A stretch of DNA of 64,000 bases from the NCBI RefSeq assembly GCF_030546645.1, contig NZ_JAUOTO010000001.1:496001-560000 (forward strand). Reading direction: 5' to 3'. Made by a program: the position numbers and the translations under genes. The notes beneath the pieces are model-generated. The model was not told the origin of the DNA. It searched no databases and saw nothing but the letters and a program-made list of their open reading frames with translations. Shown in pieces: positions 18,523 through 34,497 of this stretch; position 1 is the stretch's first letter, and each line of letters begins with the position of its first letter. The stretch comes from Flavitalea plasmicola. GTDB taxonomy: Bacteria; Bacteroidota; Bacteroidia; Chitinophagales; Chitinophagaceae.

Positions 18523-19539
18523 CTATCCCCGCATGGTTGACTCCCGCACGATCAGCTTCGTCGGCAGCGTCAGCTCCTGCACCTGGAAATGCTTCTTGTT
18601 GATATGATTCAGCAAAAATTCACAACTTTTCCTGCCGATCTCCAACGCCGGCTCCTCCACCGTCGTCAGTGAAGGAGAGATGATCTCGCACATGGGGTCG
18701 TTGGTAAAACCAATAATACCTATCTGCTTCCCGATCCTGATATTCTTCTTTTTTAAAGCCAGCATGGCCCCGATGGCCTTCCTGTCATTGACGGCGAAAA
18801 TGGCATCGGGTCTGGTCCTGGATTGTAGTAATTGCAAGGCATCCTTTTCCCCGAAATCCCTGGAAAAGCCGGAATGGATGATCCATTCTTTTTTCACCGG
18901 AAGCCGGTGATCCTTCATGGCCGCCAGGAATCCTTCCATTCTCCTCTCTGTAAAAAGCAGGCCGGCAGGACCTGCGATATGGGCGATCTTCTTATATCCC
19001 TGCTGGATCAGATGCTCTACAGCCTGATAGGCCCCATGATAATCATCCTGCATGATCTTCGACGCCTTGATATCGTGCGCCACCCTGTCAAAGAAGACAA
19101 TGGGTATACCATCCGCGATGATCTGCTCGAAATGATCGTTCTGCCGCGAGTCGGAAGAGACGCATACGAGCAGGCCGTCCATATTTCCCAGGGAAAGCTC
19201 GTTGAGGATATCCATTTCCCGCTCGGCCGAGTCATTGGTGATATACAGTACGATGTTATAGCCTTTCTTATAGGCGACTTCCTGGATACCAGTGATGACA
19301 GTGGAGAAATAGTAATTGGTAATGGTCGGCAATACGACGCCGATGTTATGACTACTGTTCTTTACGAGACCAGTGGCATTGAAGTTGGGTTTATAGTTCA
19401 GCTCCTGGGCCTTTTTCAGCACCAGCTGCCTCGTTTCCTGGTTGACATCATACGTGTCTCTCATGGCCCGGGAAACGGTGGCGACAGAGATGTTCAGCTC
19501 CCGGGCGATGTCTTTAATAGTAACGAAGTGACGCTTCAT
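18523..19539 (-). CDS. LacI/GalR-family transcriptional repressor
   Basis: A 338-residue regulator. Residues 1-60 hold the LacI headpiece (TIKDIARELNISVATVSRAM, then the hinge region with YKPNFNATGLV). Residues about 62-335 form a periplasmic-binding-protein-like sugar sensor (HNIGVVLPTITNYYFSTVI, KIAHIAGP). ATG 19539 gives a normal headpiece; an upstream in-frame ATG at 19551 adds four residues. The gene faces the hexosamine/uronate operon starting at 19666. A perfect CG-centred palindrome at 19570-19583, 30 bases before its own start, is the expected operator, so it probably represses both itself and the operon. The inducer is probably a hexosamine, a uronic acid or a derived disaccharide. 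Confidence 0.93.
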   Translation of the reverse strand: MKRHFVTIKDIARELNISVATVSRAMRDTYDVNQETRQLVLKKAQELNYKPNFNATGLVKNSSHNIGVVLPTITNYYFSTVITGIQEVAYKKGYNIVLYITNDSAEREMDILNELSLGNMDGLLVCVSSDSRQNDHFEQIIADGIPIVFFDRVAHDIKASKIMQDDYHGAYQAVEHLIQQGYKKIAHIAGPAGLLFTERRMEGFLAAMKDHRLPVKKEWIIHSGFSRDFGEKDALQLLQSRTRPDAIFAVNDRKAIGAMLALKKKNIRIGKQIGIIGFTNDPMCEIISPSLTTVEEPALEIGRKSCEFLLNHINKKHFQVQELTLPTKLIVRESTMRG

Positions 19540-19569
19540 ACGGTACCCCAAGATAACGAAAAAAGACTT

Positions 19570-19665: not shown

Positions 19666-21087
19666 ATGAGCAATCGCAGGAACTTTTTAAAGTATACCGG
19701 GCTTGTCGCGGGTGGGCTTGCCGCCGGGCCGGCGAAAATATTTGCTTCCGGACACGATGGTGATTCCTCAGCGGCAGCCGTCATCCCCCCCCAACCTCCC
19801 GGATCACAGGTCTTCAATATGTGTGGATATGCGGCTCCGAAGATAGAGACGGTGCGTATAGGCTTCATCGGTCTGGGCAACAGGGGATCGGAAGCCGTCC
19901 CCCGGATCATCCATATCGAGGGCGTGGATGTCAGGGCCCTTTGCGATATAAAAGATGCCCAGGTCCAGCTGGCCAAGAACGAGCTGATAGGCACTTCGCA
20001 TAACCCCGCCCTTTACTCCGGCAGTGAAGACGAATGGAGGAAGCTTTGCGAACGGGACGATATTGATGTTGTCTACATCGCCACCCCCTGGAAATGGCAC
20101 ACGACCATGGCCGTATACGCCATGCAGCATGGCAAGCATGTGGCGGTGGAAGTGCCGGCGGCAAAAACCCTGGAAGAGTGCTGGGAGCTGGTCAATACAT
20201 CCGAAAAGACCAAACGTCATTGTATCTTCCTGGAGAACGAATGCTATGATTTTTTTGAATTGCTGACGCTGAATATGGCCCGCCAGGGGTTTTTCGGTGA
20301 GATCATCCATGGGGAAGGGGCCTATATCCACAGCATCGGGGAAAGCCTTTTCGATCCCGTCCGGCGGCCCGGTCTCTGGCGCCTGGATGAGAATGCGCAC
20401 CGGAATGGCAACCTTTACCCCACACACGGCCTGGGCCCTGTATGCGTGATCATGAACATCAACAGGGGCGACAAAATGGAATACCTGACCTCGATGAGCA
20501 GCAATGACTTTTCCCTGCATCCCTATGCAGTGCAGCTGGCGGCCAAAGATCCCGCCTATAATAAATATACTGACAAGCATTTCCGGGGGAATATGAACAC
20601 GACGACCATCCGTACGAACCTGGGCCGGACCATCATGTTGCAGCATGATACTTCTTCACCCCGTGTGAAATCATCCCGCTACCTGATCAGTGGTACCAAA
20701 GGTACTGCGCAGTGCGATGCCGATGCGCCGCGGATCGCCACCAGTCATGAAGGATGGGTATCTCAGGACGTGTTCAATCAACTGGAGAAACAATATACCC
20801 CTGCCATCGTTCAGAAAATGGGGGAGATGGCCAGGCTGGTAGGCGGACATGGCGGTATGGACTTCCTGACGGACTGGCGCTGGATCGACTGCATTCGGAA
20901 CGGTCTGCCCATCGACCATGATGTCTATGACGCTGCACTCTGGAGCTCCATGGCTCCCCTCAGCGAATGGTCCGTCGCCCACCGCTCCAGTCCCATCGAC
21001 ATTCCGGACTTTACCCGGGGAGCCTGGCGGAAGAATGCCCCTGTCGACATCTCTATCGACCATCCTAATCTCACAAACGCTAAATAA
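19666..21087 (+). CDS. GH109-type NAD-dependent alpha-N-acetylhexosaminidase (Gfo/Idh/MocA fold), Tat-exported
   Basis: A 473-residue protein of the Gfo/Idh/MocA superfamily. A Tat signal begins with twin arginines at residues 4-5 (RRNFLKYTG). A Rossmann fold follows (IGFIGLGNRG, residues 65-74). It carries the GH109 signature rather than the normal oxidoreductase one: the EKP lysine is replaced by Glu162 (VEVP), and YPTHGLGP places Tyr251 and His254 where GH109 enzymes have catalytic residues. Known GH109 enzymes use NAD in a redox-assisted elimination to cleave alpha-N-acetylgalactosaminides. It is the first gene of the LacI-controlled operon, 27 bases before nagB, and should act in the periplasm. 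An ordinary dehydrogenase activity remains possible. Confidence 0.85.
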   Translation: MSNRRNFLKYTGLVAGGLAAGPAKIFASGHDGDSSAAAVIPPQPPGSQVFNMCGYAAPKIETVRIGFIGLGNRGSEAVPRIIHIEGVDVRALCDIKDAQVQLAKNELIGTSHNPALYSGSEDEWRKLCERDDIDVVYIATPWKWHTTMAVYAMQHGKHVAVEVPAAKTLEECWELVNTSEKTKRHCIFLENECYDFFELLTLNMARQGFFGEIIHGEGAYIHSIGESLFDPVRRPGLWRLDENAHRNGNLYPTHGLGPVCVIMNINRGDKMEYLTSMSSNDFSLHPYAVQLAAKDPAYNKYTDKHFRGNMNTTTIRTNLGRTIMLQHDTSSPRVKSSRYLISGTKGTAQCDADAPRIATSHEGWVSQDVFNQLEKQYTPAIVQKMGEMARLVGGHGGMDFLTDWRWIDCIRNGLPIDHDVYDAALWSSMAPLSEWSVAHRSSPIDIPDFTRGAWRKNAPVDISIDHPNLTNAK

Positions 21088-21114: not shown

Positions 21115-21885
21115 ATGAAAGTACATGTGGAAAAGAATGCCAAGGGACTGGGCATTGCTGCAGGAAAAGCTGCCGCCGCGCTGATCGCGGACGCCATCGG
21201 GCAAAAAGGACAGGCCAATATCATCCTGGGCACGGGGGCCAGCCAGTTCGAGACGCTGCGCCAGCTGACAGCTTCAAAGGATATCGAATGGAATAAAGTG
21301 GTGATGTTCCACCTGGACGAATACATCGGCCTGCCCGTTACGCATCCGGCCAGCTTCCGGAAATATCTTAAGGAAAGATTCCTGGATAAAGTGCCGCTCC
21401 TGAAAGCTTATCACCTGATAAATGGGGACACGGATCCCGAAGAGGAGTGCCGGCGCCTGGGAGCGTTGATCAGCGCCCATCCGATTGATGTCGCGCTGGC
21501 AGGAGTGGGGGAAAACGGTCACCTCGCTTTTAATGATCCCCCCGCTGACTTTGAAACGACCCAACCCTATATTATTGCACACCTCGACGAAGCCTGCAGG
21601 ATGCAACAGCTGGGCGAAGGCTGGTTCAAGTCCATCGATGAAGTGCCCCCCACCGCCATCAGCATGTCCGTACAGCAGCTGATGAAGTCGAAGCATATCA
21701 TTTGTTCCGTACCGGACCAACGCAAAGCCAAGGCTTTAAAGGACAGCTTCGAGCAGCCGGTAAGCAATATTTACCCTGCCAGCATATTGAGAAGGCATCC
21801 CGACTGTCAGTTCTTCCTGGACGTTTTCTCGGTATCCATGCTTTCCAGGGATGCGTCCGCTTATGAGCACCTAATAGAAAAATAA
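21115..21885 (+). CDS. nagB: Glucosamine-6-phosphate deaminase (NagB family)
   Basis: A 256-residue cytosolic enzyme of the NagB/6-phosphogluconolactonase fold. Expected reaction: glucosamine-6-phosphate to fructose-6-phosphate plus ammonia. The active-site Asp68 lies in FHLDEYIGL, and the catalytic histidine His136 in GVGENGHLAFNDPP. Compared with E. coli NagB, Asp141 is replaced by Asn134 and Glu148 by Asp141; Asn at the first site also occurs in Bacillus-type NagB, so activity is not in doubt on that ground. Galactosamine-6-phosphate as substrate is an alternative. It lies 27 bases after the GH109 gene and 7 bases before GH20, supplying the intracellular end of hexosamine breakdown. No nagA deacetylase or hexosamine kinase is seen nearby. 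Confidence 0.9.
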   Translation: MKVHVEKNAKGLGIAAGKAAAALIADAIGQKGQANIILGTGASQFETLRQLTASKDIEWNKVVMFHLDEYIGLPVTHPASFRKYLKERFLDKVPLLKAYHLINGDTDPEEECRRLGALISAHPIDVALAGVGENGHLAFNDPPADFETTQPYIIAHLDEACRMQQLGEGWFKSIDEVPPTAISMSVQQLMKSKHIICSVPDQRKAKALKDSFEQPVSNIYPASILRRHPDCQFFLDVFSVSMLSRDASAYEHLIEK

Positions 21886-21892
21886 CACCGGT

Positions 21893-23968
21893 ATGCGCGG
21901 CCCCCAGTCCATCTTATTTGCCTTTCTTCTTCTTCCCGCCATGACCTTTGCCGGGCCGGCTGACCCGTTGGGGCCGCACTTTGCATTGTTCCCTGCGCCT
22001 CAGAAGATCGAGATCGGGCAAGGCAATGGATTACGGTATACGGATCTGAAGGAGGTGTTCGTCGAAAGCGTGGACCAGGCACGGCTGCTGTCTGGCTATC
22101 CTGGACGCTTGCCCGTGCATTTTTCAGGAAATGAAGCCGCTGGCGCCCTCAGCCTGCACATAGACACCTCCCTGGATGTCCCATCCCCCGAAGGATACAT
22201 CCTCCACCTGCGCGACAACCAGGTGTCCATCCGCGCAAAGGCGCAAGTAGGCCTGTTCTATGGCCTCCAAACCCTGGATCAACTATTGGAAGACGCCAGG
22301 GACCAGGATCTCGCGATACCCGCCTGCACGATCACCGACTACCCTTCGATAGCTGTAAGGGCTGTGCACCTGGACCTCAAACACCATCTCGATGCAGGCT
22401 TTTATTACTATCATATCATCGATGTCCTGTCGAGCCTTAAGATAAACACGATCATCCTCGAATTGGAGGACAAGCTCAGATACCGGAAAGCCCCCGTGGT
22501 AGGCGCTCCACAGGCCATCTCCATCGAAGAGTTTGCCGCACTGTGCAAATACGCCCATGACCGTTTTATTGAGATAAGCCCGTTGGTGCAGGGGCTGGGT
22601 CATGCTTCCTTTATTCTAAAACATGAACAGTATAAATCGTTAAGGGATGATCCAAAGTCCGACTGGGCATTCGATCCCTTGAACCCTGAAACCTATAGGC
22701 TGCAGTTCGCCCTGTACGAAGACGCGATGGCCGCAACGCCTTTTGGAAAATACCTGCACATCGGCGGCGATGAGGTAGGGACATTGGGCAGATCACCGCT
22801 GGCCAGGGCGTCGGGCATGACGGCCATCCAGCTCCAGATGTACTGGCTGAAGAAAGTGACGGACTTCGCCATACAGCATCACAGGACACCGATCTTCTGG
22901 GACGATATGGTCTTCAAGCTGTCAGGACTGTACAGGACCACGTATGATCCGGAGATGAAGGCCCCCGAAGTCGCCGCGCTCTGGAAGAAGAATGAACCGA
23001 AGCTCAACGCGAATATTGCTCTCTTCCCTGCCAACTGTATCTATATGCGGTGGAACTATGAGGCGCCGGACGTACCTGGCAACCGGCTGGCCATCGATTG
23101 GTACCGCGCTCACCAGCTGGATGTAATGCCCGCCACCTCCGCCCAGCAATCCTATGCCATGCTGCAGCGTAACCATTCCAACTTCCCCTTTATCAGGGAT
23201 TTTTGCCTCATCGCCAAAGACCGCGGTCTGGATAAGATCCTATGTACCGTATGGGATGACAGCTCTCCCCATTTCGAGACCATCTGGCGCGGTCTCTATG
23301 ATTTTGCCTGGTTCTCCTGGAATGGTGCCGACACCACCGAACAAAATGTGCATGCCGCCTTCCGCCACCGGTTTTTCTCCCCCGCGCTGGCCGGGGCCGG
23401 ATATGAATGCAGGGACTCGCTGGAGACGGCCGTCACATTCTGGGAGACGGCATTCTTACAGGAGGGCGATCGCGAAAGCTATTATCCCACCTACAAACTG
23501 ATGGGCTTGCCCGATCCTGCCAGCAAAGGACGGTGGAGCAGTCAGTACCTGAAAAAGCTGGAAGGCGCTGCGCAGACCATGCAGATCTATCAGCTCGTAA
23601 AGGACCGTATCCAACGTTGCATCGTCCTGGCAAGAAGGAACCGGTACGCCCTCGAAGTATTGGACCAGATCAATGAGCTGCAGGGGTATTCCACCCGCCT
23701 CCTGCTATTGCTGAAGGAATATGATGAAGGCAAAGTTGGTCTGCGGCAGATCAGGGAATGTGTCAACAGCTTCCCTGACATCCGCAAGCGGCTGGAACAA
23801 GTGTTTGCCAGGACCCGGATGATGGGTAATCCCGCAGGTTATATACGGGATGCCAACCTTCATCTGCACCTTGCCAATGGAACGAATAACACTGACTGGA
23901 TGTATTTCTATGAGCTGCCTATGAACAGGAAGGTAGATCAATGGCTGCATCTCCAGGGAATAAATTGA
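21893..23968 (+). CDS. GH20 beta-N-acetylhexosaminidase
   Basis: A 691-residue exported enzyme. Signal peptide about 1-20; N-terminal GH20b alpha/beta domain about 28-150 (FPAPQKIEIG); catalytic TIM barrel about 155-500 with the diagnostic Asp293-Glu294 pair in HIGGDEV (substrate-assisted catalysis). Residues about 510-691 are a helical C-terminal extension, unlike the short end of classic GH20 enzymes. It removes terminal beta-linked GlcNAc or GalNAc from non-reducing ends. The stop codon overlaps the start of the SusC gene by one base (ATGA), so the two are translationally linked. With the upstream GH109 gene, the operon covers both alpha- and beta-linked N-acetylhexosamines. Confidence 0.92.
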   Translation: MRGPQSILFAFLLLPAMTFAGPADPLGPHFALFPAPQKIEIGQGNGLRYTDLKEVFVESVDQARLLSGYPGRLPVHFSGNEAAGALSLHIDTSLDVPSPEGYILHLRDNQVSIRAKAQVGLFYGLQTLDQLLEDARDQDLAIPACTITDYPSIAVRAVHLDLKHHLDAGFYYYHIIDVLSSLKINTIILELEDKLRYRKAPVVGAPQAISIEEFAALCKYAHDRFIEISPLVQGLGHASFILKHEQYKSLRDDPKSDWAFDPLNPETYRLQFALYEDAMAATPFGKYLHIGGDEVGTLGRSPLARASGMTAIQLQMYWLKKVTDFAIQHHRTPIFWDDMVFKLSGLYRTTYDPEMKAPEVAALWKKNEPKLNANIALFPANCIYMRWNYEAPDVPGNRLAIDWYRAHQLDVMPATSAQQSYAMLQRNHSNFPFIRDFCLIAKDRGLDKILCTVWDDSSPHFETIWRGLYDFAWFSWNGADTTEQNVHAAFRHRFFSPALAGAGYECRDSLETAVTFWETAFLQEGDRESYYPTYKLMGLPDPASKGRWSSQYLKKLEGAAQTMQIYQLVKDRIQRCIVLARRNRYALEVLDQINELQGYSTRLLLLLKEYDEGKVGLRQIRECVNSFPDIRKRLEQVFARTRMMGNPAGYIRDANLHLHLANGTNNTDWMYFYELPMNRKVDQWLHLQGIN

Positions 23969-26900
23969 TGAAGGCTCTTATAGTTTATAAAACCAAAACT
24001 CCGCTTATGCAACGGATCAGCAACACATGGAAGGCCTTCGCGCCTGCGTGCCGGATCAGAATTTGTATCCTGCTCGTATCCCTGCCTTCCTTTCTCCTTG
24101 CGCAGACAAGAACGATTTCCGGCACGGTCCGGGATGAAAAAGGCCAGCCGATGGCCGGAGCTTCCGCAACAGTTAAAAAGACGGGGATAGGCACCAGCAC
24201 GGATGCCGCGGGGAAATTCTCCCTGCAGGCGGCCACCGGCGCCGTCATCGTGCTTTCCGCCGTCAACTACGAGGATGTGGAGATCGTAGTGGGGCAGGAT
24301 GCCAGCTATAACGTCGTATTCAAACAGAAAGCTTCCCAGCTGAACGATGTCGTCGTAGTTGGGTACGGCACGCAGAAAAAGGCGGATCTCACGGGCGCCA
24401 TAGCGACCGTAGATAAACGCCTGCTGGAGAACAGGCCAGTGACCAATGCCGTGGCTGCCTTGCAAGGGGCGGCTCCTGGTCTGATCATCACCCGTTTCAG
24501 CGGACAACCGGGAAAGGAGGACTATGCCGCCAATGTCCGCGGGTATTCTTCTGTCAACGGGACAAACACCGCGCTCGTGCTGGTCGATGGCGTGGAAGGC
24601 GACCTGGCGCTGCTGAACCCCAATGACATCGAATCCATCTCTGTCCTGAAAGACGCCGCTGCCGTGTCCATCTATGGCGCGAAAGCCGCCGGGGGCGCTA
24701 TCCTGGTGACAACCAAAAAGGGCACAGCCGACAGGCTGACCGTCACCTATTCCGGGTTGACCACTTTCAATCATAAATTTGGGATCCCCCAGCGCCTCCA
24801 TTCCTGGCAGGACGCTGAAATGCAGAACGAAGCCTTTAAAAATGCAGGCTTTAACCCAGCTTATACCCAACAGGAACTGGATTGGATGAAGGATCCCAAT
24901 ATCAACTACATCGTCAATCCTTCCAATCCCAGCGTGTATAAATATTATTATGACCTGAACCAGATCAACCTCCTGATGAGAAAGACGGCCTTTAGCCAGA
25001 CCCATAATGTTTCCTTGCGAGGCGGGTCCGACAAAACCCAGTACCTGTTCTCCGTCGGGTATTTCGACCAGGACGGCGTCTTCAAATTCGGACCGGATGG
25101 CACCAAACGTTACAACGCAAGGCTCAACCTGACGACAAAGCTGAGCAATATTTTCAGTCTGGATGCGAGGGTGGCCTATACGCAGACCCATACCATGTCC
25201 CCCAGCGGGGACACCTATGCAGACTATGGCCTGCTGTACGGTATCTACCAGCTGAGGACGATCTATCCCGTCTTTCTTCCGGGCTCCAACGAAACAAAAT
25301 ATGCCAGGGCGGGCAGCGCTCCCACGACCTACCAGATCCTGAAGGACGGCGGGTACAACGAGGATCTTCGCCACAATCTGGACGGAGTGTTTACGCTTAA
25401 GGCGGAGAATTTTGTAAAGGGCCTGTCCGTACGGCTGCTGTATAGCCCCCAGCTGACCTTTGCGGAGAACAATATGTTCGAGAAGACCATCCCGCTCTAT
25501 GACATCGGTCCGGAACCCACCAAGTTCATCTTCAACCCGAATTCATTCACGAAGTTCCGGGGCGTGCTGGACAGAACGAATGTACAGGCCCTGGCCGACT
25601 ATGACCTGGAGATAGCCGACAGGCACCATTTCCATCTGTTGGGAGGTTACCAGTACCAATATTTCCACGCAGATACCACCAGCGCTACTGCGAGCGCGCT
25701 GATCTCGAATGACGTCCCCTCCCTCAACCTGAGCGGCGACCCCACCGTGCCCCCGACGGTAGGAGATAATGTCCAGGCCAATGCCCTCGTCTCTTATTTC
25801 GGCCGGTTCAACTATAATTTCGACGGGAAATATTTTGTTGAGGCGACTTTGCGCAATGATGCCAGCTCCCAGCTGGCGCCCTCCAGGAGAAGCCAGTATT
25901 TTCCCTCCGTGTCGGCTGCCTGGCGGCTGGCCAAAGAAGGCTGGTTCAGGGACGCCGCTCCCTTTTTCGATGAACTAAAAATAAGGGGGTCCTGGGGCAA
26001 GCTGGGCAATTCCAACGTCCTTGGCAACTACGATTATATTTCCATGCTGAACAGGGGCCCCGTCTATCCCTTTAACAATACGAGGAACAATTCCCTTTAC
26101 CAGGCCGTGCTGGCCTCGCCCGAAAAGACATGGGAAAGAATAGCCACCACGGATGGAGGGATCGATATAGGGTTGCTGCAGAGCAGGCTCACGGCCAGCT
26201 TTGACTATTATGTCCGCACCAATGAGAATATGCTGGTAGTGGTGAATGTCCCTTCCACGCTGGGGCTTATTCCCAGCGCAACCAATTCCGCCCGTCTCAG
26301 GACCAGGGGTTGGGAAGCCTCCATCGGCTGGAAAGACAGGACGCGCAAGCTGAACTACTGGATCAATTTCAATATCTCGGATAATAAGGATGTCGTTACC
26401 CGCTATGACGGACAGAATGTGATTGCCGAAGGCCTGAACACCGTGATACAGGGCATGCCCATCAATTCCATTTACGGGTATGAATCGCAGGGTTATTTCA
26501 AGACGGACGCCGACGTGGCGGCGCACGCTTTCCAGGACAGCCGGACGGGTGCGGGAGACCTGATCTATAAGGACCAGGATAAGAACGGCGTCGTCAATGG
26601 CGGACTAAACCGCCCCGACGATCATGGCGACCTGGTATACCTCGGCAATACCAGCCCGCGATTCACCTTTGGTCTGAACCTGGGCGCCGAATGGAATGGT
26701 TTCGATCTGTCCGCCCTGTTCCAGGGAGTGGGCAAAAGGAATATGCTGATCTATCCTTCCGCGGTGGTGCCATTTGTCGACGCATGGAGACAGCCCTGGG
26801 CCATCAACACGGACTACTGGACGCCTACGCACACGGACGCCCTGTTCCCCCGTCTTTACGTGGGTGGCACACAGAATGTGCTGACCAGCACCAAATGGGT

Positions 26901-27132
26901 GCAGAATGCCGCCTACATCCGCCTGAAGAACCTGCAGGTAGGCTATACACTGCCACAGCGATGGACCAGCAAAGCAAAGATCCAAAAGGCAAGGATCTTC
27001 TTCTCCGGACAGGATATATGGGAGCACAGCAAGATGTGGTATAAATACTTCGACGCGGAGAGCCCCAACAACGCGGCTTACAACTATCCTTTCTTCCGTA
27101 GCTATGCCGCCGGGCTGAATATCACTTTCTAA
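23968..27132 (+). CDS. SusC-type TonB-dependent outer membrane receptor
   Basis: A complete SusC/RagA protein of 1054 residues. In order: signal segment (about 1-45), carboxypeptidase-like regulatory domain (about 50-125; ISGTVRDEKGQPMAGASATV), plug with the TonB-box-like start VVVVGYGTQKKADLTGA (about 128-240), and a 22-strand-type barrel ending in phenylalanine. The start at 23968 (MKALIVYK) shares the A of the GH20 stop codon and is preferred to ATG 23941 inside GH20; ATG 24007 is another possibility. It imports the oligosaccharide with its SusD partner 22 bases downstream. Having SusC/D in the middle of an operon after the enzymes is less usual than at its head. Confidence 0.95.
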   Translation: MKALIVYKTKTPLMQRISNTWKAFAPACRIRICILLVSLPSFLLAQTRTISGTVRDEKGQPMAGASATVKKTGIGTSTDAAGKFSLQAATGAVIVLSAVNYEDVEIVVGQDASYNVVFKQKASQLNDVVVVGYGTQKKADLTGAIATVDKRLLENRPVTNAVAALQGAAPGLIITRFSGQPGKEDYAANVRGYSSVNGTNTALVLVDGVEGDLALLNPNDIESISVLKDAAAVSIYGAKAAGGAILVTTKKGTADRLTVTYSGLTTFNHKFGIPQRLHSWQDAEMQNEAFKNAGFNPAYTQQELDWMKDPNINYIVNPSNPSVYKYYYDLNQINLLMRKTAFSQTHNVSLRGGSDKTQYLFSVGYFDQDGVFKFGPDGTKRYNARLNLTTKLSNIFSLDARVAYTQTHTMSPSGDTYADYGLLYGIYQLRTIYPVFLPGSNETKYARAGSAPTTYQILKDGGYNEDLRHNLDGVFTLKAENFVKGLSVRLLYSPQLTFAENNMFEKTIPLYDIGPEPTKFIFNPNSFTKFRGVLDRTNVQALADYDLEIADRHHFHLLGGYQYQYFHADTTSATASALISNDVPSLNLSGDPTVPPTVGDNVQANALVSYFGRFNYNFDGKYFVEATLRNDASSQLAPSRRSQYFPSVSAAWRLAKEGWFRDAAPFFDELKIRGSWGKLGNSNVLGNYDYISMLNRGPVYPFNNTRNNSLYQAVLASPEKTWERIATTDGGIDIGLLQSRLTASFDYYVRTNENMLVVVNVPSTLGLIPSATNSARLRTRGWEASIGWKDRTRKLNYWINFNISDNKDVVTRYDGQNVIAEGLNTVIQGMPINSIYGYESQGYFKTDADVAAHAFQDSRTGAGDLIYKDQDKNGVVNGGLNRPDDHGDLVYLGNTSPRFTFGLNLGAEWNGFDLSALFQGVGKRNMLIYPSAVVPFVDAWRQPWAINTDYWTPTHTDALFPRLYVGGTQNVLTSTKWVQNAAYIRLKNLQVGYTLPQRWTSKAKIQKARIFFSGQDIWEHSKMWYKYFDAESPNNAAYNYPFFRSYAAGLNITF

Positions 27133-27154: not shown

Positions 27155-28792
27155 ATGAATACGCTTCATACAAGAACGTTCCTGCTCCTCCTCCCGGCAC
27201 TCCTGTTCTTCGGCTGCTCCAAAAAGCTGGACCAGGTGCCGAAAACAGACTTGTCCGACGTCAATTTCTGGAATACCACCAACGATATGAAATTGGCATG
27301 TAACTACCTGTATTCCTTCTTACCCCCTATCAATAGCCATACCGACGACGACATGTCCGCGGATGCTTTTGGGCTCAGCGCGAATTCCGTCAGCGACGGC
27401 TCCTGGCTGCCGCCCGCGACGGCTGACAGCTGGACGGGCAATTACAATCTGATCAGAGCCTGTAACAATATCCTGGAGAAATCCGTGAAAGTAAAGGGCG
27501 ACCAGGGTGAGATCAGTAAATATCTCGGAGAGACGCGGTTCTTCCGGGCCTGGGGATATTTCGACCTGGTAAAACGCTATGGTGACGTTCCCTTTGTGAC
27601 GAAGACGCTGCAGCTGACCGACACTTTATTGTATACAGGCAGGACGAACAGGGAAATAGTGCTGGACTCCGTTTACGCAGACCTGGATTTTGCCGTGGCG
27701 CATCTTCCTGGCGCCAGTCAGCAGGCCAGTGAGGAATACGGCCGGATCACCAGCACAGCGGCCCTGGCCTTTAAATCAAGGGTAGCCCTTTTCGAAGGGA
27801 CCCGGATGAAGTTCTTTGGTCAGGCTGGCTACCAGACCCACCTGCAGAAGGCCATCGACGCCAGCGATGCGATCATCGGGCAAGGCAACAACGGGCTGTT
27901 TACGTACGCAGCCAACCCGGACAGCAGCTACTATTACCTCTTCCAGTATACGGGAGAAGGACAGGCTAACCCGGAAAATATCCTCGTCCGGATCTATGGA
28001 GAGAACCAGGTCAACGATATCTCCGCCAACAATTACACCCGGGAAGTCCTCGATGAAGGACTGCTGATGCCCACCAGTAATTTCACGTCCTCCTACCTGT
28101 ATAAGGATGGATTACCTTCGGATAAATCACCTTATTACCAGACCCAGACCAATACGTACACAGAGTTTGAAAACCGCGACCCCAGGATGGCCATGACGAT
28201 CTTTAATAAATACTCCTGGTACGTATCCGGTCTCTATGTGCCTACCTTTGAATATTCCCAGACAGGTTACAGATCCTGTAAGTATTATATTGCAGCCGAC
28301 TGGACCATCAATGTAAGCTATATCGACAACATCATTATTCGCTACGCGGAAGTCCTGCTCAATAACCTGGAAGCCCGTTTTGAGCTGAATGGCTCCGTCA
28401 CGGATGACGAGCTGAATGCCACCCTCAACCTGATCCGGGCAAGAGCGAAGATGCCGGCGCTGACCAATAACTTCGTTTCGTCCAATGGCCTGGACATGCG
28501 TACGGAGATCAGGCGCGAGAGAAGGATCGAGCTGGCTTTCGAAGGGTTCCGGTATTGGGACCTGCTGCGTTGGAAGACGGCGGAGACGGAATTGCCGCAG
28601 GCCATCATCGGTGTAAAGTATTTCCCGGCCGAACAAGGGCAGCTGGATGATCCGCACCTGACCTCGGATGGATTTATCATCACACAGGATGCGAACAAAC
28701 GTCATTTTAATCCGGAAAGAGATTATCTCTGGCCCATCCCCACCCAGGAGCTGGGTCTGAACCCTAAACTAACCCCCAACCCTAAATGGTAA
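27155..28792 (+). CDS. SusD/RagB family glycan-binding lipoprotein
   Basis: A 545-residue outer-membrane lipoprotein, partner of the preceding SusC. Signal and lipobox are LLFFGCSKK, with the lipidated cysteine about residue 22. The helical SusD core includes NYLYSFLPP and the TPR-like repeats, followed by the typical RRERRIELAFEGFRYWDLLRWK segment (about 446-467). The C-terminus YLWPIPTQELGLNPKLTPNP is standard. The operon continues: the fusion-enzyme gene either overlaps its end by seven bases or begins 20 bases after it, depending on the start chosen. Confidence 0.95.
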   Translation: MNTLHTRTFLLLLPALLFFGCSKKLDQVPKTDLSDVNFWNTTNDMKLACNYLYSFLPPINSHTDDDMSADAFGLSANSVSDGSWLPPATADSWTGNYNLIRACNNILEKSVKVKGDQGEISKYLGETRFFRAWGYFDLVKRYGDVPFVTKTLQLTDTLLYTGRTNREIVLDSVYADLDFAVAHLPGASQQASEEYGRITSTAALAFKSRVALFEGTRMKFFGQAGYQTHLQKAIDASDAIIGQGNNGLFTYAANPDSSYYYLFQYTGEGQANPENILVRIYGENQVNDISANNYTREVLDEGLLMPTSNFTSSYLYKDGLPSDKSPYYQTQTNTYTEFENRDPRMAMTIFNKYSWYVSGLYVPTFEYSQTGYRSCKYYIAADWTINVSYIDNIIIRYAEVLLNNLEARFELNGSVTDDELNATLNLIRARAKMPALTNNFVSSNGLDMRTEIRRERRIELAFEGFRYWDLLRWKTAETELPQAIIGVKYFPAEQGQLDDPHLTSDGFIITQDANKRHFNPERDYLWPIPTQELGLNPKLTPNPKW

Positions 28793-28812
28793 GACAGATG
28801 ATCGATGGACGG

Positions 28813-31800
28813 ATGAAGCAATGGTTGTTGGTCCTGTTTTGTGGCCTGGTCATGAAGGTGAATGTTCATGGCCAGGCATCCCGTCCGGCCCTGCTCCAAC
28901 CCTCCCGTCCGGCCCTGCTCCACCCCCCCCGTTCCGCCCTGCTCAAAATGGTGGAAGACGACCTGGTATTTGCAGCGGACCAATACAAGTCCCTGCTGCA
29001 ACATCTCCCACCCGGCCTGATTCCCCGAACGTACGACAAACGATCAGATACCCTCGTCACCAGCGGCGCGGATTGGTGGTGCAGCGGCTTCTTTCCCGGT
29101 ACGCTCTGGTACCTGTACGAATATGGGCATGACCCTGCCTTCAAACAGGAGGCGGAGAAAAGAATGCAGCTGATCGAAGGTCAGCAATTCAACACGGGAG
29201 ACCATGATCTCGGGTTCAGGATATTCTGCAGCTATGGGAATGCTTACCGGATCACAGGCAACCCGGCGTATAAAAAAGTATTGATGGAAGCCGCCCGGTC
29301 ACTATCCACCAGGTTCCGGCCTTCGATCCGGTCCATACAATCCTGGGATGCTTCTTCCCGGTACCATTGCCCCGTGATCATCGACAACCTGATGAACCTG
29401 GAACTATTGGAATGGCGTGACCCCTTCGACACGATGGCCATGCAGCATGCGTATACGGCCATGCGCAATCATTTCCGGAAAGACTACAGCACCTGGCATG
29501 TGGTGGATTATGACAGCGCGACGGGCCGGCCGATGCGAAAGATCACCCGGCAGGGGGCGTCTGATGCTTCCACCTGGAGCCGGGGAGAGGCGTGGGCATT
29601 GTATGCGTATACCATGCTTTTCCGCTACACAAAGGATCCGGCCTACCTGTCCCAGGCCGAACATATTGCCCATTTTATATGGAGCCGGTTGCCACCGGAT
29701 GGCATCCCTTATTGGGATTTTGATGCGCCGGGTATTCCTCAGGCTTATAAGGACGCATCCGCGGCAGCCGTCATGGCTTCCGCCTTTCTTGAGCTGGCCG
29801 GTTATACTTCGGCAGCCAACAGTGACACCTGTATCCACGTGGCGGAAAAGATCCTTCAGACCCTTTCTTCCACCGCTTACAGAGCCGCTCCCGGAACAAA
29901 CGGAGGTTTTTTGCTGATGCATAGTGTGGGTGCGCTTCCTTTTAATGCTGAAGTGGATCAGCCGCTGACATATGCGGATTATTATTTTCTCGAAGCGTTA
30001 TTAAAGCTTCGCAGCAACCTCGCCGACTCGATGAAATATTTCGATGGCCAAAGTCTTTCGGTCATTGGCCGGATGCACGATGAGAACAACTATCATCGCC
30101 TGCCTTGGAAATTCAGGAACGTTGTAAGAGACCCCGTATGGGACGAAAGTCTTTCGTCTGCCGGCATATCCATTCGTTTCAGGACAAACGCAGTGACCTT
30201 ACGCGTCAGATGGAGCCTGGCCGAAAAGGGAAGGTCCTGGAACCTGAATCCCGCCGGCGCAGACGGAATGGACCTGTACGCCCATACGGATAAAGGATGG
30301 CAGTATGTCAATACGGCGCTGGCGAAGGATACGGTAAACGAGTTTACGCTCCTGCGCAACGGCGAACCCTTATACCGGGAATACCTTTTAAACCTGCCGC
30401 TTTATAATTGTGTCACCGGCCTTTCCGTCGGGATCAACCAGGGGGCCGTCATCGGCCCGCCGGCGTCCAGGTATCTCCTGGATAAAAAGCCCGTCGTATA
30501 TTACGGCAGCAGCATTGCCCAGGGTGCATCCGCCAGCCGCCCCGGTCTGGCCTATACCAATATACTTTCCCGCCAGCTGGACAGGAGTTTCATCAACCTG
30601 GGGTTCAGCGGCGAAGGCACTTTCGACGCGTCGGTAGGACAAGCTATGTCGGAGATCGATGCGACGCTGTATGTCATCGACTGTACGCCGAATTCGAAGA
30701 AGGAGATCATTTATGACCGTGCCGTGAACCTCGTCAGAATGTTGAAGCAGCAGCGGCCGGCGACACCTGTGCTGCTGGTGGAAGGATCTTATTACGACGA
30801 TCTTACTTTTGAGAAAGATGGTAACGGGAATATCGATGCGAAAAGAAAAGAACTGAAGAAAGCCTATGATACACTCATCCGCGCAGGTGTAAAAGGGCTC
30901 TATTATAAGACGGGACAAGGCCTCACCGGCTACGATCACGAAGGTACGGTGGACGGCGTCCACCCTGATGACATCGGGATGCAGCGATTCGCTGGACAGC
31001 TATTACCCGTGATCCGGTCGATCCTGCAAAAGGAGCAACACGAAATTCCTGCTCCCCCGCAATACTATTCTCCGGATGATTTTTATTCCGTGAAAAAGAT
31101 AGATGCGCACACGCACATCACCGAAGAGGCGGATACTGCCTTTGTCAGGCAGGCGGAGGCCGACAATTTCCGGTTCCTGAACATTAATGTGTACGCGTCA
31201 TCAGGTACGCCATTGGAAGAACAGCAGGAATTTGCGCTCCGGGAGATAAAGGCATTTCCCGGAAGGATGGCCTATGCGACGGCATTTTCATTGGAACATT
31301 TCAATGACACGGGATGGCAGCGTGAGGTGATAGGGTATCTTGACAGCTCGTTCTCCAAAGGAGCCATCGCGGTGAAGGTGTGGAAGAACATAGGTATGGA
31401 ATTACGTGATTCCAGCGGTCAGCTGGTCTTGATCGACGATCCCCGGTTTGATCCAATATTAAGCTTCCTGGCAAAGAAAGGGATACCATTGATCGGACAT
31501 TTAGGGGAGCACAGGAATTCCTGGCTACCCCTGGATAAAATGACCGTCAAAGGCAACAGGGACTATGCGGCGGCCCATCCGCAGGAGTATATGTATCTCC
31601 ATCCCGAACGACCTTCCTATGAGACCTATATCAGGGCCCGGGATCATATGCTGGAGAAGCACCCTGACCTTCGATTCGTGGGCGCCCACCTGGGAAGCCT
31701 CGAATGGAGTGTGGATGAGCTGGCACGCCGGCTGGATAAATATCCCAATATGGCCGTGGATATGGCGGAACGGATCTCGCACCTGCAATACCAGGCCCTG

Positions 31801-32106
31801 ACCCAGTGGCAGAAAGTACATGACTTCTTTATCAAATACCAGGACAGGTTGATCTATGGAACGGATATGCGCAGTTCCGCGATGGATATAGCGAACGAAC
31901 ATATCACCGGGTACGAAGGTCTGAAACAACATGCACATGAGGTCTGGCTGCGGCATTGGAGATTCTTTACAACAGATGACAGTATGCGCGTGCCGAAAGT
32001 GCAGGGCGCGTTCAAAGGATTAAAGCTGCCCCGAAGGGTAGTGGATAAGATCTATTACGGGAATGCTGTAAGGTGGTACCCCGGTTTGGCAGGCAGGATC
32101 GATTAA
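28813..32106 (+). CDS. Triple-domain exported enzyme: GH88 unsaturated glycuronidase + SGNH esterase + amidohydrolase
   Basis: A 1097-residue three-enzyme fusion. Signal peptide about 1-21 (ATG 28813 starts it cleanly; 28786 and 28798 are alternatives), then three 8-residue repeats. Domain 1 (about 50-405) is GH88: WWCSGFFPGTLWYLYEYG, FNTGDHDLGF, PVIIDNLMNLELL and STWSRGEAWALYAY match unsaturated glucuronyl hydrolases. Domain 2 (about 410-740) is a GxDLY-type beta domain (GMDLYAHTD) plus SGNH esterase, with Ser567 in YYGSSIAQG and Asp714/His717 in DGVHPDD. Domain 3 (about 757-1095) is an Amidohydro_2-type TIM barrel with His766/His768 in IDAHTHI, GHLGE, GAHLGS and YGTDM. All active-site motifs look intact. 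It predicts removal of unsaturated uronate, ester groups and a further amide, lactone or carboxyl group in the periplasm. It lies 10 bases before the hexuronate-type transporter. Confidence 0.9.
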   Translation: MKQWLLVLFCGLVMKVNVHGQASRPALLQPSRPALLHPPRSALLKMVEDDLVFAADQYKSLLQHLPPGLIPRTYDKRSDTLVTSGADWWCSGFFPGTLWYLYEYGHDPAFKQEAEKRMQLIEGQQFNTGDHDLGFRIFCSYGNAYRITGNPAYKKVLMEAARSLSTRFRPSIRSIQSWDASSRYHCPVIIDNLMNLELLEWRDPFDTMAMQHAYTAMRNHFRKDYSTWHVVDYDSATGRPMRKITRQGASDASTWSRGEAWALYAYTMLFRYTKDPAYLSQAEHIAHFIWSRLPPDGIPYWDFDAPGIPQAYKDASAAAVMASAFLELAGYTSAANSDTCIHVAEKILQTLSSTAYRAAPGTNGGFLLMHSVGALPFNAEVDQPLTYADYYFLEALLKLRSNLADSMKYFDGQSLSVIGRMHDENNYHRLPWKFRNVVRDPVWDESLSSAGISIRFRTNAVTLRVRWSLAEKGRSWNLNPAGADGMDLYAHTDKGWQYVNTALAKDTVNEFTLLRNGEPLYREYLLNLPLYNCVTGLSVGINQGAVIGPPASRYLLDKKPVVYYGSSIAQGASASRPGLAYTNILSRQLDRSFINLGFSGEGTFDASVGQAMSEIDATLYVIDCTPNSKKEIIYDRAVNLVRMLKQQRPATPVLLVEGSYYDDLTFEKDGNGNIDAKRKELKKAYDTLIRAGVKGLYYKTGQGLTGYDHEGTVDGVHPDDIGMQRFAGQLLPVIRSILQKEQHEIPAPPQYYSPDDFYSVKKIDAHTHITEEADTAFVRQAEADNFRFLNINVYASSGTPLEEQQEFALREIKAFPGRMAYATAFSLEHFNDTGWQREVIGYLDSSFSKGAIAVKVWKNIGMELRDSSGQLVLIDDPRFDPILSFLAKKGIPLIGHLGEHRNSWLPLDKMTVKGNRDYAAAHPQEYMYLHPERPSYETYIRARDHMLEKHPDLRFVGAHLGSLEWSVDELARRLDKYPNMAVDMAERISHLQYQALTQWQKVHDFFIKYQDRLIYGTDMRSSAMDIANEHITGYEGLKQHAHEVWLRHWRFFTTDDSMRVPKVQGAFKGLKLPRRVVDKIYYGNAVRWYPGLAGRID
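28880..28951 (+). repeat. Three tandem 24-base coding repeats
   Basis: Units begin at 28880, 28904 and 28928. The first two share the 19-base core CCCGTCCGGCCCTGCTCCA; the third is diverged (CCCGTTCCGCCCTGCTCAA). They encode the octapeptide series SRPALLQP, SRPALLHP and PRSALLK between the signal peptide and the GH88 domain. A run of eight C (28923-28930) joins units two and three. Confidence 0.9.
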
Positions 32107-32116
32107 ATTTATTTAT

Positions 32117-33394
32117 ATGAATGGTACGAGGACGGGGAACTATCGCTGGTTTATTTGCTTTCTGCTTTTTGCCGCGACGACGATCAATTACATCGACCGC
32201 CAGATCTTCGGACTGCTGAAGCCGGAGCTGGAGAAGGTCTTTGGCTGGTCCGAAATGGATTACAGCAGGATCGTGATGGCTTTCACCATTTGCTATGCCT
32301 GCGGACTGCTGGTGTATGGGAGGATCATCGACAGGATAGGTACCCGGCTGGGCTATACCATCTCCGTCACGATCTGGAGCGCCGTAGCCATGCTGCATTC
32401 GGCTGTGAGGAGCACCTTTGGGTTCGGTGTGGTGCGGGCCTTGCTGGGCATCGGCGAATCAGGGAATTATCCGGCGGGTGTGAAGACCGTCGGGGAATGG
32501 TTCCCACCCAAAGAAAGAGCGCTGGCCATCGGGATCCTGGATTCCGGCTGTAACATCGGAGCTTGCGTGGGGCCGCTGCTGGTCCCCTGGATCCTGGCAA
32601 CCTATGGCTGGCAGACTGCTTTTCTCGTGACGGGTGCGCTGGGCTTTATCTGGCTCATCTGCTGGCTTCGTTTCTATCAACTGCCGGCAAAACACAAACG
32701 CTTATCGGCCGCAGAATTGGAATATATACGCGGTGATGAAGAAGAGGTGGTGGCTCCAGTACGCCTTTCCTGGGCAAAGCTGCTACGGTATAAGCAGACA
32801 TGGGCGTTTATCATTGGGAAGTTCTTCACCGATCCGATCTGGTTCTTCTTTCTTTTCTGGCTCCCTTCTTACTTCAGCACGCATTTTCACCTTGACCTTC
32901 GAAAACCGAGCCTGCCCCTCGTCATCGTCTATGGAGGGACGATGATCGGCAGTCTGGGGGGAGGGTATCTGTCGTCATGGCTTATTAAGAAAGGCTGGCC
33001 AGTCTATAAGGCACGGAAGGCGGCATTATTGGTGTCGGCGATCTGTGTGGTGCCCATCATCATCACGAGATATACGGTCGATATCCGCGTGGTTGTCGCT
33101 TTGATCAGCTTGTCAGCGGCAGCCAACCAGGCATGGAGCGCCAATATCTTCGCCATAGTTCCGGACATGTTCCCTAAGAATGCCATCAGCTCTGTGGTGG
33201 GATTGGGTGGCATGGCAGGCGCCATCGGCAGCGTGCTCTTCCCGCTGTTCATCGGATTTATATTGGATTTTTATAAGCATGCAGGCAATATAGTCGCCGG
33301 CTATAATATCATTTTCCTGGTTTGCGGCAGCTCCTTTCTCCTGGCCTGGATCCTTATACATTATGTCACACCAAAAATGGGAAAGATCCAATGA
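32117..33394 (+). CDS. MFS transporter, hexuronate (ExuT-like) type
   Basis: A 425-residue major facilitator protein of the anion:cation symporter family, with 12 predicted helices. The first helix motif INYIDRQIFGLLKPELEKVFGWSE and YGRIIDRIGTRLG in loop 2-3 are characteristic of Bacteroidota ExuT-type hexuronate transporters. It would import galacturonate, glucuronate or related keto-acids through the inner membrane after periplasmic release by the GH88 domain of the preceding gene. It lies 10 bases after that gene, and its stop overlaps the next start (ATGA). The exact substrate is inferred from family and context. Confidence 0.88.
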   Translation: MNGTRTGNYRWFICFLLFAATTINYIDRQIFGLLKPELEKVFGWSEMDYSRIVMAFTICYACGLLVYGRIIDRIGTRLGYTISVTIWSAVAMLHSAVRSTFGFGVVRALLGIGESGNYPAGVKTVGEWFPPKERALAIGILDSGCNIGACVGPLLVPWILATYGWQTAFLVTGALGFIWLICWLRFYQLPAKHKRLSAAELEYIRGDEEEVVAPVRLSWAKLLRYKQTWAFIIGKFFTDPIWFFFLFWLPSYFSTHFHLDLRKPSLPLVIVYGGTMIGSLGGGYLSSWLIKKGWPVYKARKAALLVSAICVVPIIITRYTVDIRVVVALISLSAAANQAWSANIFAIVPDMFPKNAISSVVGLGGMAGAIGSVLFPLFIGFILDFYKHAGNIVAGYNIIFLVCGSSFLLAWILIHYVTPKMGKIQ

Positions 33395-34497
33395 ACACAT
33401 CCACATGCCCATCGTCTCAACGATTGCTCTCCCTCGATTTTATGCGCGGACTGATCATGATCCTGCTGATGCTGGAAGCCTCAGATCTTTACGAGCGGCT
33501 GGCAGATGCTTCCCGGGGGACGCTGTTTGCCCCGCTTGTCGACCAGTTCTTTCATCACCCCTGGAATGGACTTCGATTCTGGGATCTCATCCAGCCCGGG
33601 TTCATGTTCATCGCAGGAACGGCGATGGCTTATTCACTGCATCATCAGGGGGAGAAAGGAGTATCCCGCCGGCAGATGGCTTCAAAAGTCCTGAAACGCT
33701 CCGGGCTGTTGTTTTTCTGGGGCGTCTGGATACGGTCGGTGCATGGGGGAGGCCTTAGCTTCGAGTTATGGAATGTGCTGGTGCAGCTGGCATTCACAAC
33801 GCTGGTCGCCTTCCTTATTTTTCATTGGTCCATCCGGTGGCAGATCATTTTCAGTATTGCCTTATTAGCGCTGACAGAATTATTATACCGTGGTTTCCAT
33901 CTGCCCGGCTTTGACCAGCCCTTCACAGACCAGCACAATTTTGGCAATTATGTCGATCTGCTCCTCATGCACAAGACCAGTAAAGGGGGATGGGTAGCCA
34001 TCAATTGTATCCCGACGGCCTGCCATACCATCTGGGGCGCGCTGGGAGGCAAGCTGCTGCTCTCGCAAAGGACTGCCATGGAGAAATTCAAATGGATAGG
34101 CCTGGCAGGCCTGGCGGCGCTGCTGGCGGGATATGCACTCGGATGGACTTTCACCCCTATTATCAAGCGGATCGCCACCTCTTCCTTTGTCCTGGCATCC
34201 GGCGGATGGTGCTTGCTGGCGCTCGCCCTGTTCTATGGATGGATCGATCTGCGGGGCCACAAGAAGTTTGTATGGTTTTTCTCCGTGGTGGGAGTCAACT
34301 CCCTTTTTATTTATCTGTTCATGAATACCCTGGCCGGAGGGATCAATGAATATGTGGACAAGGTTACATCCGGGTACTTGCAGGCTATCCATGTGCCCGC
34401 GTTAACAATAGGGATTGTCGCTTCGCTCCTCACATTTATGGTTGAATGGTATCTCTGCTGGTTTCTCTTTAAGAGGAAGATCTTTATCAAGATATGA
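33391..34497 (+). CDS. NagX/DUF5009-type membrane protein (heparan-glucosaminide acetyltransferase-like)
   Basis: A 368-residue integral membrane protein with about 10 helices. The start MNTSTCPSSQRLLSLDFMRG, with LDFMRG before helix 1, and the overall pattern match the COG4299 group that includes NagX and relatives of human HGSNAT. Bacterial NagX members occur in GlcNAc/chitobiose loci and may help import or acylate amino sugars; the reaction is not settled. Conserved-looking asparagine and histidine positions occur in INCIPTACHTIWG. ATG 33391 overlaps the transporter stop and is preferred to the in-frame upstream ATG at 33322. This is the last gene of the operon; I see no strong terminator in the 39 bases after it. 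Confidence 0.85.
   Translation: MNTSTCPSSQRLLSLDFMRGLIMILLMLEASDLYERLADASRGTLFAPLVDQFFHHPWNGLRFWDLIQPGFMFIAGTAMAYSLHHQGEKGVSRRQMASKVLKRSGLLFFWGVWIRSVHGGGLSFELWNVLVQLAFTTLVAFLIFHWSIRWQIIFSIALLALTELLYRGFHLPGFDQPFTDQHNFGNYVDLLLMHKTSKGGWVAINCIPTACHTIWGALGGKLLLSQRTAMEKFKWIGLAGLAALLAGYALGWTFTPIIKRIATSSFVLASGGWCLLALALFYGWIDLRGHKKFVWFFSVVGVNSLFIYLFMNTLAGGINEYVDKVTSGYLQAIHVPALTIGIVASLLTFMVEWYLCWFLFKRKIFIKI

Follow-up and report, generated by a model that had tools for sequence, protein, structure and literature searches.

A GH88–SGNH–amidohydrolase fusion protein in a Flavitalea polysaccharide utilization operon, with a tentative amino-sugar role for its third domain

The 64,000-nt stretch of Flavitalea plasmicola DNA analysed here (contig NZ_JAUOTO010000001.1, positions 496,001 to 560,000; hereafter the window) carries an open reading frame (ORF) in which a GH88 domain, an SGNH hydrolase unit and an amidohydrolase domain are joined in one chain. 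Having at least two catalytic domains in a chain adjoining SusC/SusD, the encoded protein is by that criterion a multicatalytic enzyme of a polysaccharide utilization locus (PUL). This kind of fusion is already known, because the available text of two sources describes PUL proteins that unite two catalytic domains in one chain (PMC8417218, PMC7110780). The GH88–SGNH–amidohydrolase order appears to be new: a previous interpretation of the letters alone (the sequence-only reading) knew of no described protein of this kind, and none was found in the Creative Commons (CC)-licensed PMC literature. The family of the amidohydrolase is, in our view, the more valuable lead. We tentatively favour a reading in which the fusion would be a periplasmic PUL enzyme acting on short uronate–N-acetylhexosamine (HexNAc) oligosaccharides, likely chondroitin-like, and in which the third domain would most likely be a HexNAc N-deacetylase, this activity being its most conjectural element.

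The ORF at 28813–32106 (+) translates without a stop into 1097 residues, and the earliest ATG of the frame, at 28786, would extend the product to 1106 residues. Pfam, solved structures and residue mapping agreed with the earlier description of a single 1097-residue chain bearing three catalytic domains with intact motifs; Ser567, Asp714, His717, His766 and His768 were all found where that description had placed them, and a search for a stop or frameshift between the domains found none. Of the four Pfam-type units in the protein, three are catalytic; it is divided as follows.

28786–32106 (+): whole fusion ORF, GH88–SGNH–amidohydrolase, probably exported (ORF, Pfam, solved structures)
28813–28941 (+): signal-peptide-like start and short tandem repeat, SRPALLQP-like (read from the sequence)
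28942–30018 (+): GH88 domain, residues ~44–402, with Asp132/Asp191 (3wiw, E 4e-94; residue mapping)
30031–30453 (+): GxDLY, N-terminal part of the SGNH unit, residues 407–547 (PF14607, 117.7 bits; 4lhs)
30484–31017 (+): SGNH catalytic domain, Lipase_GDSL_3, residues 558–735, with Ser567, Asn627, Asp714 and His717 (PF14606, 197.6 bits)
31060–32103 (+): Amidohydro_2 TIM barrel, residues 750–1097, with H766, H768, K855, H896, H959 and D1018 (PF04909, 51.4 bits; pLDDT 96.1; fold matches)

The N-terminus resembles a Sec-type signal peptide as judged by eye, and the protein is probably exported and likely periplasmic. Directly after the signal peptide, at window positions 28879–28944, lies the tandem repeat SRPALLQP / SRPALLHP / PRSALL, which is missing in both orthologues. 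A model of the full-length protein built from 3 sequences reached a pLDDT of 31.5.

The Pfam GH88 profile (PF07470) gave 18.3 bits on the fusion, under its cut-off of 26.6; with the same profile one other GH88 relative scored 29.9 bits, over the cut-off (locus L125), and another was not listed (L122). Solved structures matched this part of the protein, namely 3wiw (residues 60–398) and 1vd5 (E 1e-43). The catalytic pair of the Bacillus unsaturated glucuronyl hydrolase (UGL), which we take to be Asp88/Asp149, mapped via 1vd5 to Asp132/Asp191 of the fusion, a pair that was invariant in 18 of 18 aligned GH88 domains. These matches and the conserved pair bear out the previous assignment of the domain to the unsaturated-uronyl type, which would fit an unsaturated uronyl unit as substrate; the PUL setting was also confirmed. 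3WIW itself, presumably a heparin-specific unsaturated glucuronyl hydrolase, is a 402-residue chain, whereas GH88 is the first third of the fusion.

In the SGNH unit, the Lipase_GDSL_3 score stands against a cut-off of 27, and S567, N627, D714 and H717 were invariant in all five aligned sequences. The structure 4LHS, a free-standing and uncharacterised protein, matched the whole GxDLY/Lipase_GDSL_3 unit (E 3e-58, residues 404–739). We assume that this domain acts on an ester. The available text of a 2022 review gives no characterised member of Lipase_GDSL_3 (PMC9487903), and that of a paper on a PUL-encoded acetyl xylan esterase of the SGNH type assigns the enzyme to PF13472 and has no mention of PF14606 or GxDLY (PMC5863359).

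The third domain belongs to Amidohydro_2 by both Pfam match and TIM-barrel fold. The Pfam match covers residues 862–1090 with a partial profile (positions 110–288 of 289), and the AlphaFold model from 85 sequences is a TIM barrel with a pTM of 0.94. Amidohydrolases use a metal-ligand set of HxH, Lys, His, His and Asp, and in the third domain this set appears complete (H766, H768, K855, H896, H959, D1018); together with K858 these residues did not vary across an alignment of 85 sequences, made up of the window protein, its two orthologues and 82 others. Members of this domain family also occur in other combinations: a tandem pair of third-domain-family amidohydrolases in one 709-aa ORF beside a Gfo/Idh gene (L018:9893–12019, and L130), and, in genome G396, ~32 kb from its fusion gene, a 1100-aa ORF that joins an amidohydrolase of this family to BNR/Sortilin-Vps10 repeats (L121:5552–8851).

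The fusion is rare and conserved. Within the genus, 3 of 33 genomes have it (G000, the genome of the window; G396; and G409, counted as one with locus L006, whose contig has the same length of 167,201 bases). One full-length fusion (L006) was found among the 79 GTDB loci that represent the best 80 of 377 relatives, from which records of the window's own genome may have been omitted, and of 84 loci only the window ORF (L001) and L006 combined at least two of the three domains (BLAST, E ≤ 1e-8). Among the matches listed for 394 genomes sampled from the family, in a ranking that would put any full-length match at the top, the fusion appeared in one genome, its own; the third domain alone was found at E ≤ 1e-70 in 10 of 396 genomes sampled from the order. 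The two orthologues are 79% and 78% identical to the window protein, with the domain order unchanged in both. Between the two orthologues, the ratio of nonsynonymous to synonymous substitution rates (dN/dS) was 0.07–0.11 per domain (GH88 0.105, GxDLY 0.082, SGNH 0.089, amidohydrolase 0.072). Comparisons with the window, partly at or near synonymous saturation, gave 0.05 to 0.12 in the domains where synonymous sites were unsaturated, and above 1 in the linker of 10 codons that precedes the third domain; the N-terminus was also loosely constrained.

An assembly or frameshift artefact can be given practically no credence: the frame has no stop, orthologues exist in G396 and in G409/L006, and the fusion is not an assembly accident because three genomes of the genus have it inside the same eight-gene operon. 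The same conservation bears on the proposal that PUL genes were joined by chance, giving stoichiometric co-export of activities that are neither sequential nor functionally coupled. In its favour, domain synergy is absent from some multicatalytic enzymes in the literature (PMC8417218, available text), and the window's own genome has a second GH88 joined to an alpha-L-fucosidase domain; three species, one operon and low dN/dS in every domain argue against it, and we regard it as improbable. The second GH88 fusion (L126:10450–13902) joins the fucosidase (PF01120, 174–510) to the GH88 relative (817–1148, BLAST) in one 1151-aa frame. In congeners, GH88 matches lie within 1920- and 2023-aa open frames (G409:C27:446011 and G411:C382:5825), which suggests that the genus may hold additional GH88 fusions.

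The order of the eight operon genes and of the divergent LacI-type regulator is identical in the three species, and the gaps between the eight genes of the window range from -28 to +27 bases. Around the fusion, the following genes were found.

18523–19551 (-): LacI-type regulator, divergent from the operon (annotation of window proteins)
19666–21087 (+): Gfo/Idh-family protein, GH109-like (best PDB match 6t2b, E 3.6e-97; 2ixa, E 1e-70)
21115–21885 (+): NagB-like amino-sugar-6-phosphate deaminase (PF01182; TIGR00502, 139.6 bits against a cut-off of 236.9)
21893–23968 (+): GH20-like protein (two GH20 Pfam domains)
23941–27132 (+): SusC/RagA (TIGR04056)
27155–28792 (+): SusD (PF07980)
32117–33394 (+): transporter of the major facilitator superfamily (MFS)
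33391–34497 (+): NagX-like transmembrane N-acetyltransferase (124.8 bits against a cut-off of 480; no Pfam match)

Because the NagB and NagX scores stay under the curated NCBIfam cut-offs, the names given to the operon proteins point to likely substrates, not to exact ones. Elsewhere, the same genome holds a PL8 gene, whose domains (Lyase_N, Lyase_catalyt and Lyase_8) we take to be those of chondroitin ABC lyase, and two Hepar_II_III matches. Relatives of the GH20 gene occurred in 11 of 394 family genomes. Among ten GH20 neighbourhoods read, one (L149, genome G352) had relatives of five operon parts, as separate genes: NagX-like, third domain (57%), GH109-like (58%), GH20 (54%) and NagB (65%). 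Neither GH88 nor SGNH was found in that neighbourhood. In L148 and L149, a NagA-like gene separates NagB from GH20 (with one further gene there in L148); no such NagA-like gene occurs in the fusion operon. Pfam lists Amidohydro_1 for the NagA-like protein of L149 and, at E ≤ 0.01, does not list it for the fusion. A second, distant Amidohydro_2 subfamily (22–28% identical) is represented in L147, L149, L155 and, in the window's own genome, L005; in the first three it lies near NagX-like, GH20 or BNR genes.

Free-standing relatives of the third domain often lie among genes for amino sugars. As a guide, near neighbours were counted against more distant ones. In 73 loci, comparing genes within 2.5 kb with those at 5–7.5 kb, we found aldolase in 14 against 1, PfkB in 14 against 1, AgaS in 10 against 0, Gfo/Idh in 12 against 1, GH36 in 7 against 0 (two queries), NagX-like in 5 against 0, AXE-like esterase in 7 against 1, GH20 in 3 against 1, and SusC in 6 against 11. 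A set of 76 loci, which includes two doubles (L010 = L129, L008 = L127), gave similar counts within 4 kb against 5.5–9.5 kb (aldolase 16 and 1, PfkB 16 and 1, AgaS 15 and 1, Gfo/Idh 12 and 2, NagX-like 5 and 0 with two queries); the 73-locus set is free of doubles and was made with tighter limits and more queries. In 37 further loci, chosen as having no full cassette and with several near-duplicates of the same genera omitted, the families listed for 110 near neighbours included 6 Gfo/Idh, 6 Melibiase, 3 GH109_C and many singletons, while in a control of 90 more distant genes SusD/SusC and sulfatases came on top of those listed, with 2 Gfo/Idh. Two or three of Nramp, epimerase-like and dihydrodipicolinate synthase (DHDPS)-like genes recur near the amidohydrolase and AgaS in L033, L036, L039, L042, L046 and L124. 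An attempt to identify the beta-propeller neighbour of relative L032 as a known protein gave no PDB match at E ≤ 0.001.

Two kinds of neighbour point to galactosamine. The SIS protein is AgaS-family, with 386 and 359 bits against a cut-off of 529, and no NagA/AgaA-like ORF was found in any of the 18 AgaS loci within stretches of 3.8–24 kb (17 are distinct, since two share one contig; L046 and L079 do not have the full cassette). The available text of PMC5583593 takes agaS without agaA as a sign of galactosamine (GalN) rather than N-acetylgalactosamine (GalNAc) use. The GH36 gene lies downstream on the same strand, at most 123 bases away, in L034, L041, L043 and L062. For two of the seven GH36 neighbours a PDB comparison was made: that of L062 matched FpGalNase (1.4e-82 for 8x1b and 1.2e-80 for 9awt, with the next other protein at 3.2e-15), and FpGalNase was also closest to that of L079 (1.9e-68). 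FpGalNase acts on A antigens jointly with a GalNAc deacetylase (PMC11762096, available text).

It is because of these neighbours and of the fusion's own operon that we suggest an amino-sugar role for the third domain, on GalNAc or GlcNAc. The sequence-only reading had the amidohydrolase process the uronate product once released; such a role, as a lactonase or decarboxylase, is not supported by the gene context. We keep the lactonase as an alternative. Specifically, the domain could be a COG3618-like sugar lactonase that opens lactones made by the adjoining Gfo/Idh-family proteins. The Gfo/Idh protein of the window is GH109-like, as are those 57–62% identical to it beside relatives in L012, L013, L030, L080, L098 and L100, and published GH109 enzymes are glycosidases, namely N-acetylgalactosaminidases, in the available text of PMC12269599 and PMC11992087. 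The proposal also leaves the AgaS/aldolase and FpGalNase-like GH36 neighbours unexplained, and we consider it unlikely. Somewhat less unlikely is that the domain acts on an amino sugar in another way, through a different amide or an ester, by isomerisation or by deamination: the same gene context speaks for it, no characterised relative was found by sequence in the PDB, and a His/Lys/Asp set of this sort is common throughout the amidohydrolase superfamily. Against it, the PDB relatives of the adjoining FpGalNase-like GH36 bear a name that marks them as a galactosaminidase, and FpGalNase is partnered with a deacetylase (PMC11762096).

Under the deacetylase reading, the domains and the operon would act in order. 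A lyase from another locus of the genome would leave a terminal unsaturated uronic acid on an oligosaccharide; the GH88 domain would take off this terminal residue and the SGNH domain an O-acyl group. The amidohydrolase domain would then act on the exposed HexNAc, most likely by cleaving the N-acetyl amide, and the GH109-like, GH20-like, MFS and NagB-like proteins of the operon would free the amino sugar, take it up and break it down. With slightly less confidence than in this reading, we can conceive of the third domain as a member of a large uncharacterised family of exported GalNAc/HexNAc deacetylases, whose free-standing members would partner GH36 enzymes of the FpGalNase type as well as AgaS/kinase/aldolase cassettes. 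These would make up an extracytoplasmic, "deacetylate first" GalNAc route in environmental Bacteroidota and in a small number of further phyla, and the fusion would join this step to uronate removal.

Several results weigh against a deacetylase. A PDB profile search with the third domain found no relative at E ≤ 0.001, and its fold neighbours in VIA were decarboxylases, hydratases, lactonase-type proteins and unknowns; in the same list, COG3618 proteins, decarboxylases and unknowns all fell within a few Z units of each other. Foldseek rows also included allantoinase, dihydroorotase and metallopeptidases, and none of the 50 VIA fold matches listed was titled a sugar deacetylase. Given such varied amidohydrolase folds and no PDB sequence relative, the function of the third domain rests on gene context. 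This context has its own limits: the neighbour statistics are only a guide, because the queries were picked after some loci had been read and many loci come from related metagenome-assembled genomes, and many of the 73 loci have none of these neighbours. In the tree, the fused third domains group together with a support of 99, and their closest rows are L127 and L087 (on the contigs of L008 and L009), which have no AgaS, GH36, GH109 or NagX within 2.5 kb. The clade lies within 15 tree rows, none of which received an AgaS, GH36 or NagX/GH109 label when these were assigned by hand, and 4 of which have another Gfo/Idh adjoining. As the nearest rows are without amino-sugar neighbours, the context evidence comes from cousins and not from sisters, the fusion's own operon excepted. 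Nor is a tagatose route proven: it was models of 5-dehydro-2-deoxygluconokinase and of ribokinase that gave the PfkB protein its best scores, and the aldolase, for which the tagatose-bisphosphate score ties (L124) or narrowly leads (L029, L012) the fructose-bisphosphate scores, clears only the general ketose-bisphosphate cut-off.

The operon and its relatives add to these difficulties. The operon genes read show no lyase and no sulfatase, and the NagX-like acetyltransferase would restore an acetyl group, so that its presence beside a deacetylase is unexplained. The window's own genome has a NagA-like gene elsewhere (68% to that of L149), and such genes occurred in 13 of 13 genomes searched; the idea that the third domain stands in for a missing NagA was accordingly dropped, and a periplasmic deacetylase is not required to close a gap. 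L150 and L152 are clusters of NagX-like, AXE-like esterase, GH109-like and GH20 genes, and the stretches read contained no relative of the third domain. Their AXE-like esterase, 27–28% identical to the query, sits where other loci have the amidohydrolase, which could mean either that the two enzymes have a deacylating function in common or that a cluster can do without the amidohydrolase.

Known systems resemble the fusion in part. In the available text of PMC12269599, Bacteroides caccae PUL25 (PL35, GH88, GH109, GH154) acts on chondroitin, a uronate–GalNAc polymer, and has GH88 and GH109 within the same locus; it differs in having separate proteins and a lyase within the PUL, and that text contains neither "amidohydrolase" nor "SGNH". 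The enzyme BeCE15A-Rex8A (PMC8417218) and the acetyl-feruloyl esterase fusions (PMC7110780) likewise have short linkers and rare architectures. In contrast to the fusion described here, they are xylan enzymes with two catalytic domains, and their available text names no amidohydrolase. The pair FpGalNAcDeAc and FpGalNase (PMC11762096, available text) is matched on the GH36 side, through the FpGalNase-like partners of two free-standing relatives. If the deacetylase reading is true, NagA/AgaA would share the kind of reaction with the third domain, although by Pfam they are Amidohydro_1 and the third domain is Amidohydro_2. NagA/AgaA belong to the same superfamily as Amidohydro_2, and their substrates are 6-phosphates. 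In the CC-licensed PMC literature, we found no work linking a GalNAc/galactosamine deacetylase with an amidohydrolase in Bacteroidetes, and the titles of the papers found named no amidohydrolase of the third-domain kind.

Taken as a domain-fusion ("Rosetta stone") clue, the protein offers an approach to two groups of enzymes that have no assigned activity, Lipase_GDSL_3 and this branch of Amidohydro_2. If the proposed family of GalNAc deacetylases is real, it would help to explain how environmental Bacteroidota use galactosamine-containing glycans, and it would provide new enzymes of the kind used for A-antigen removal.

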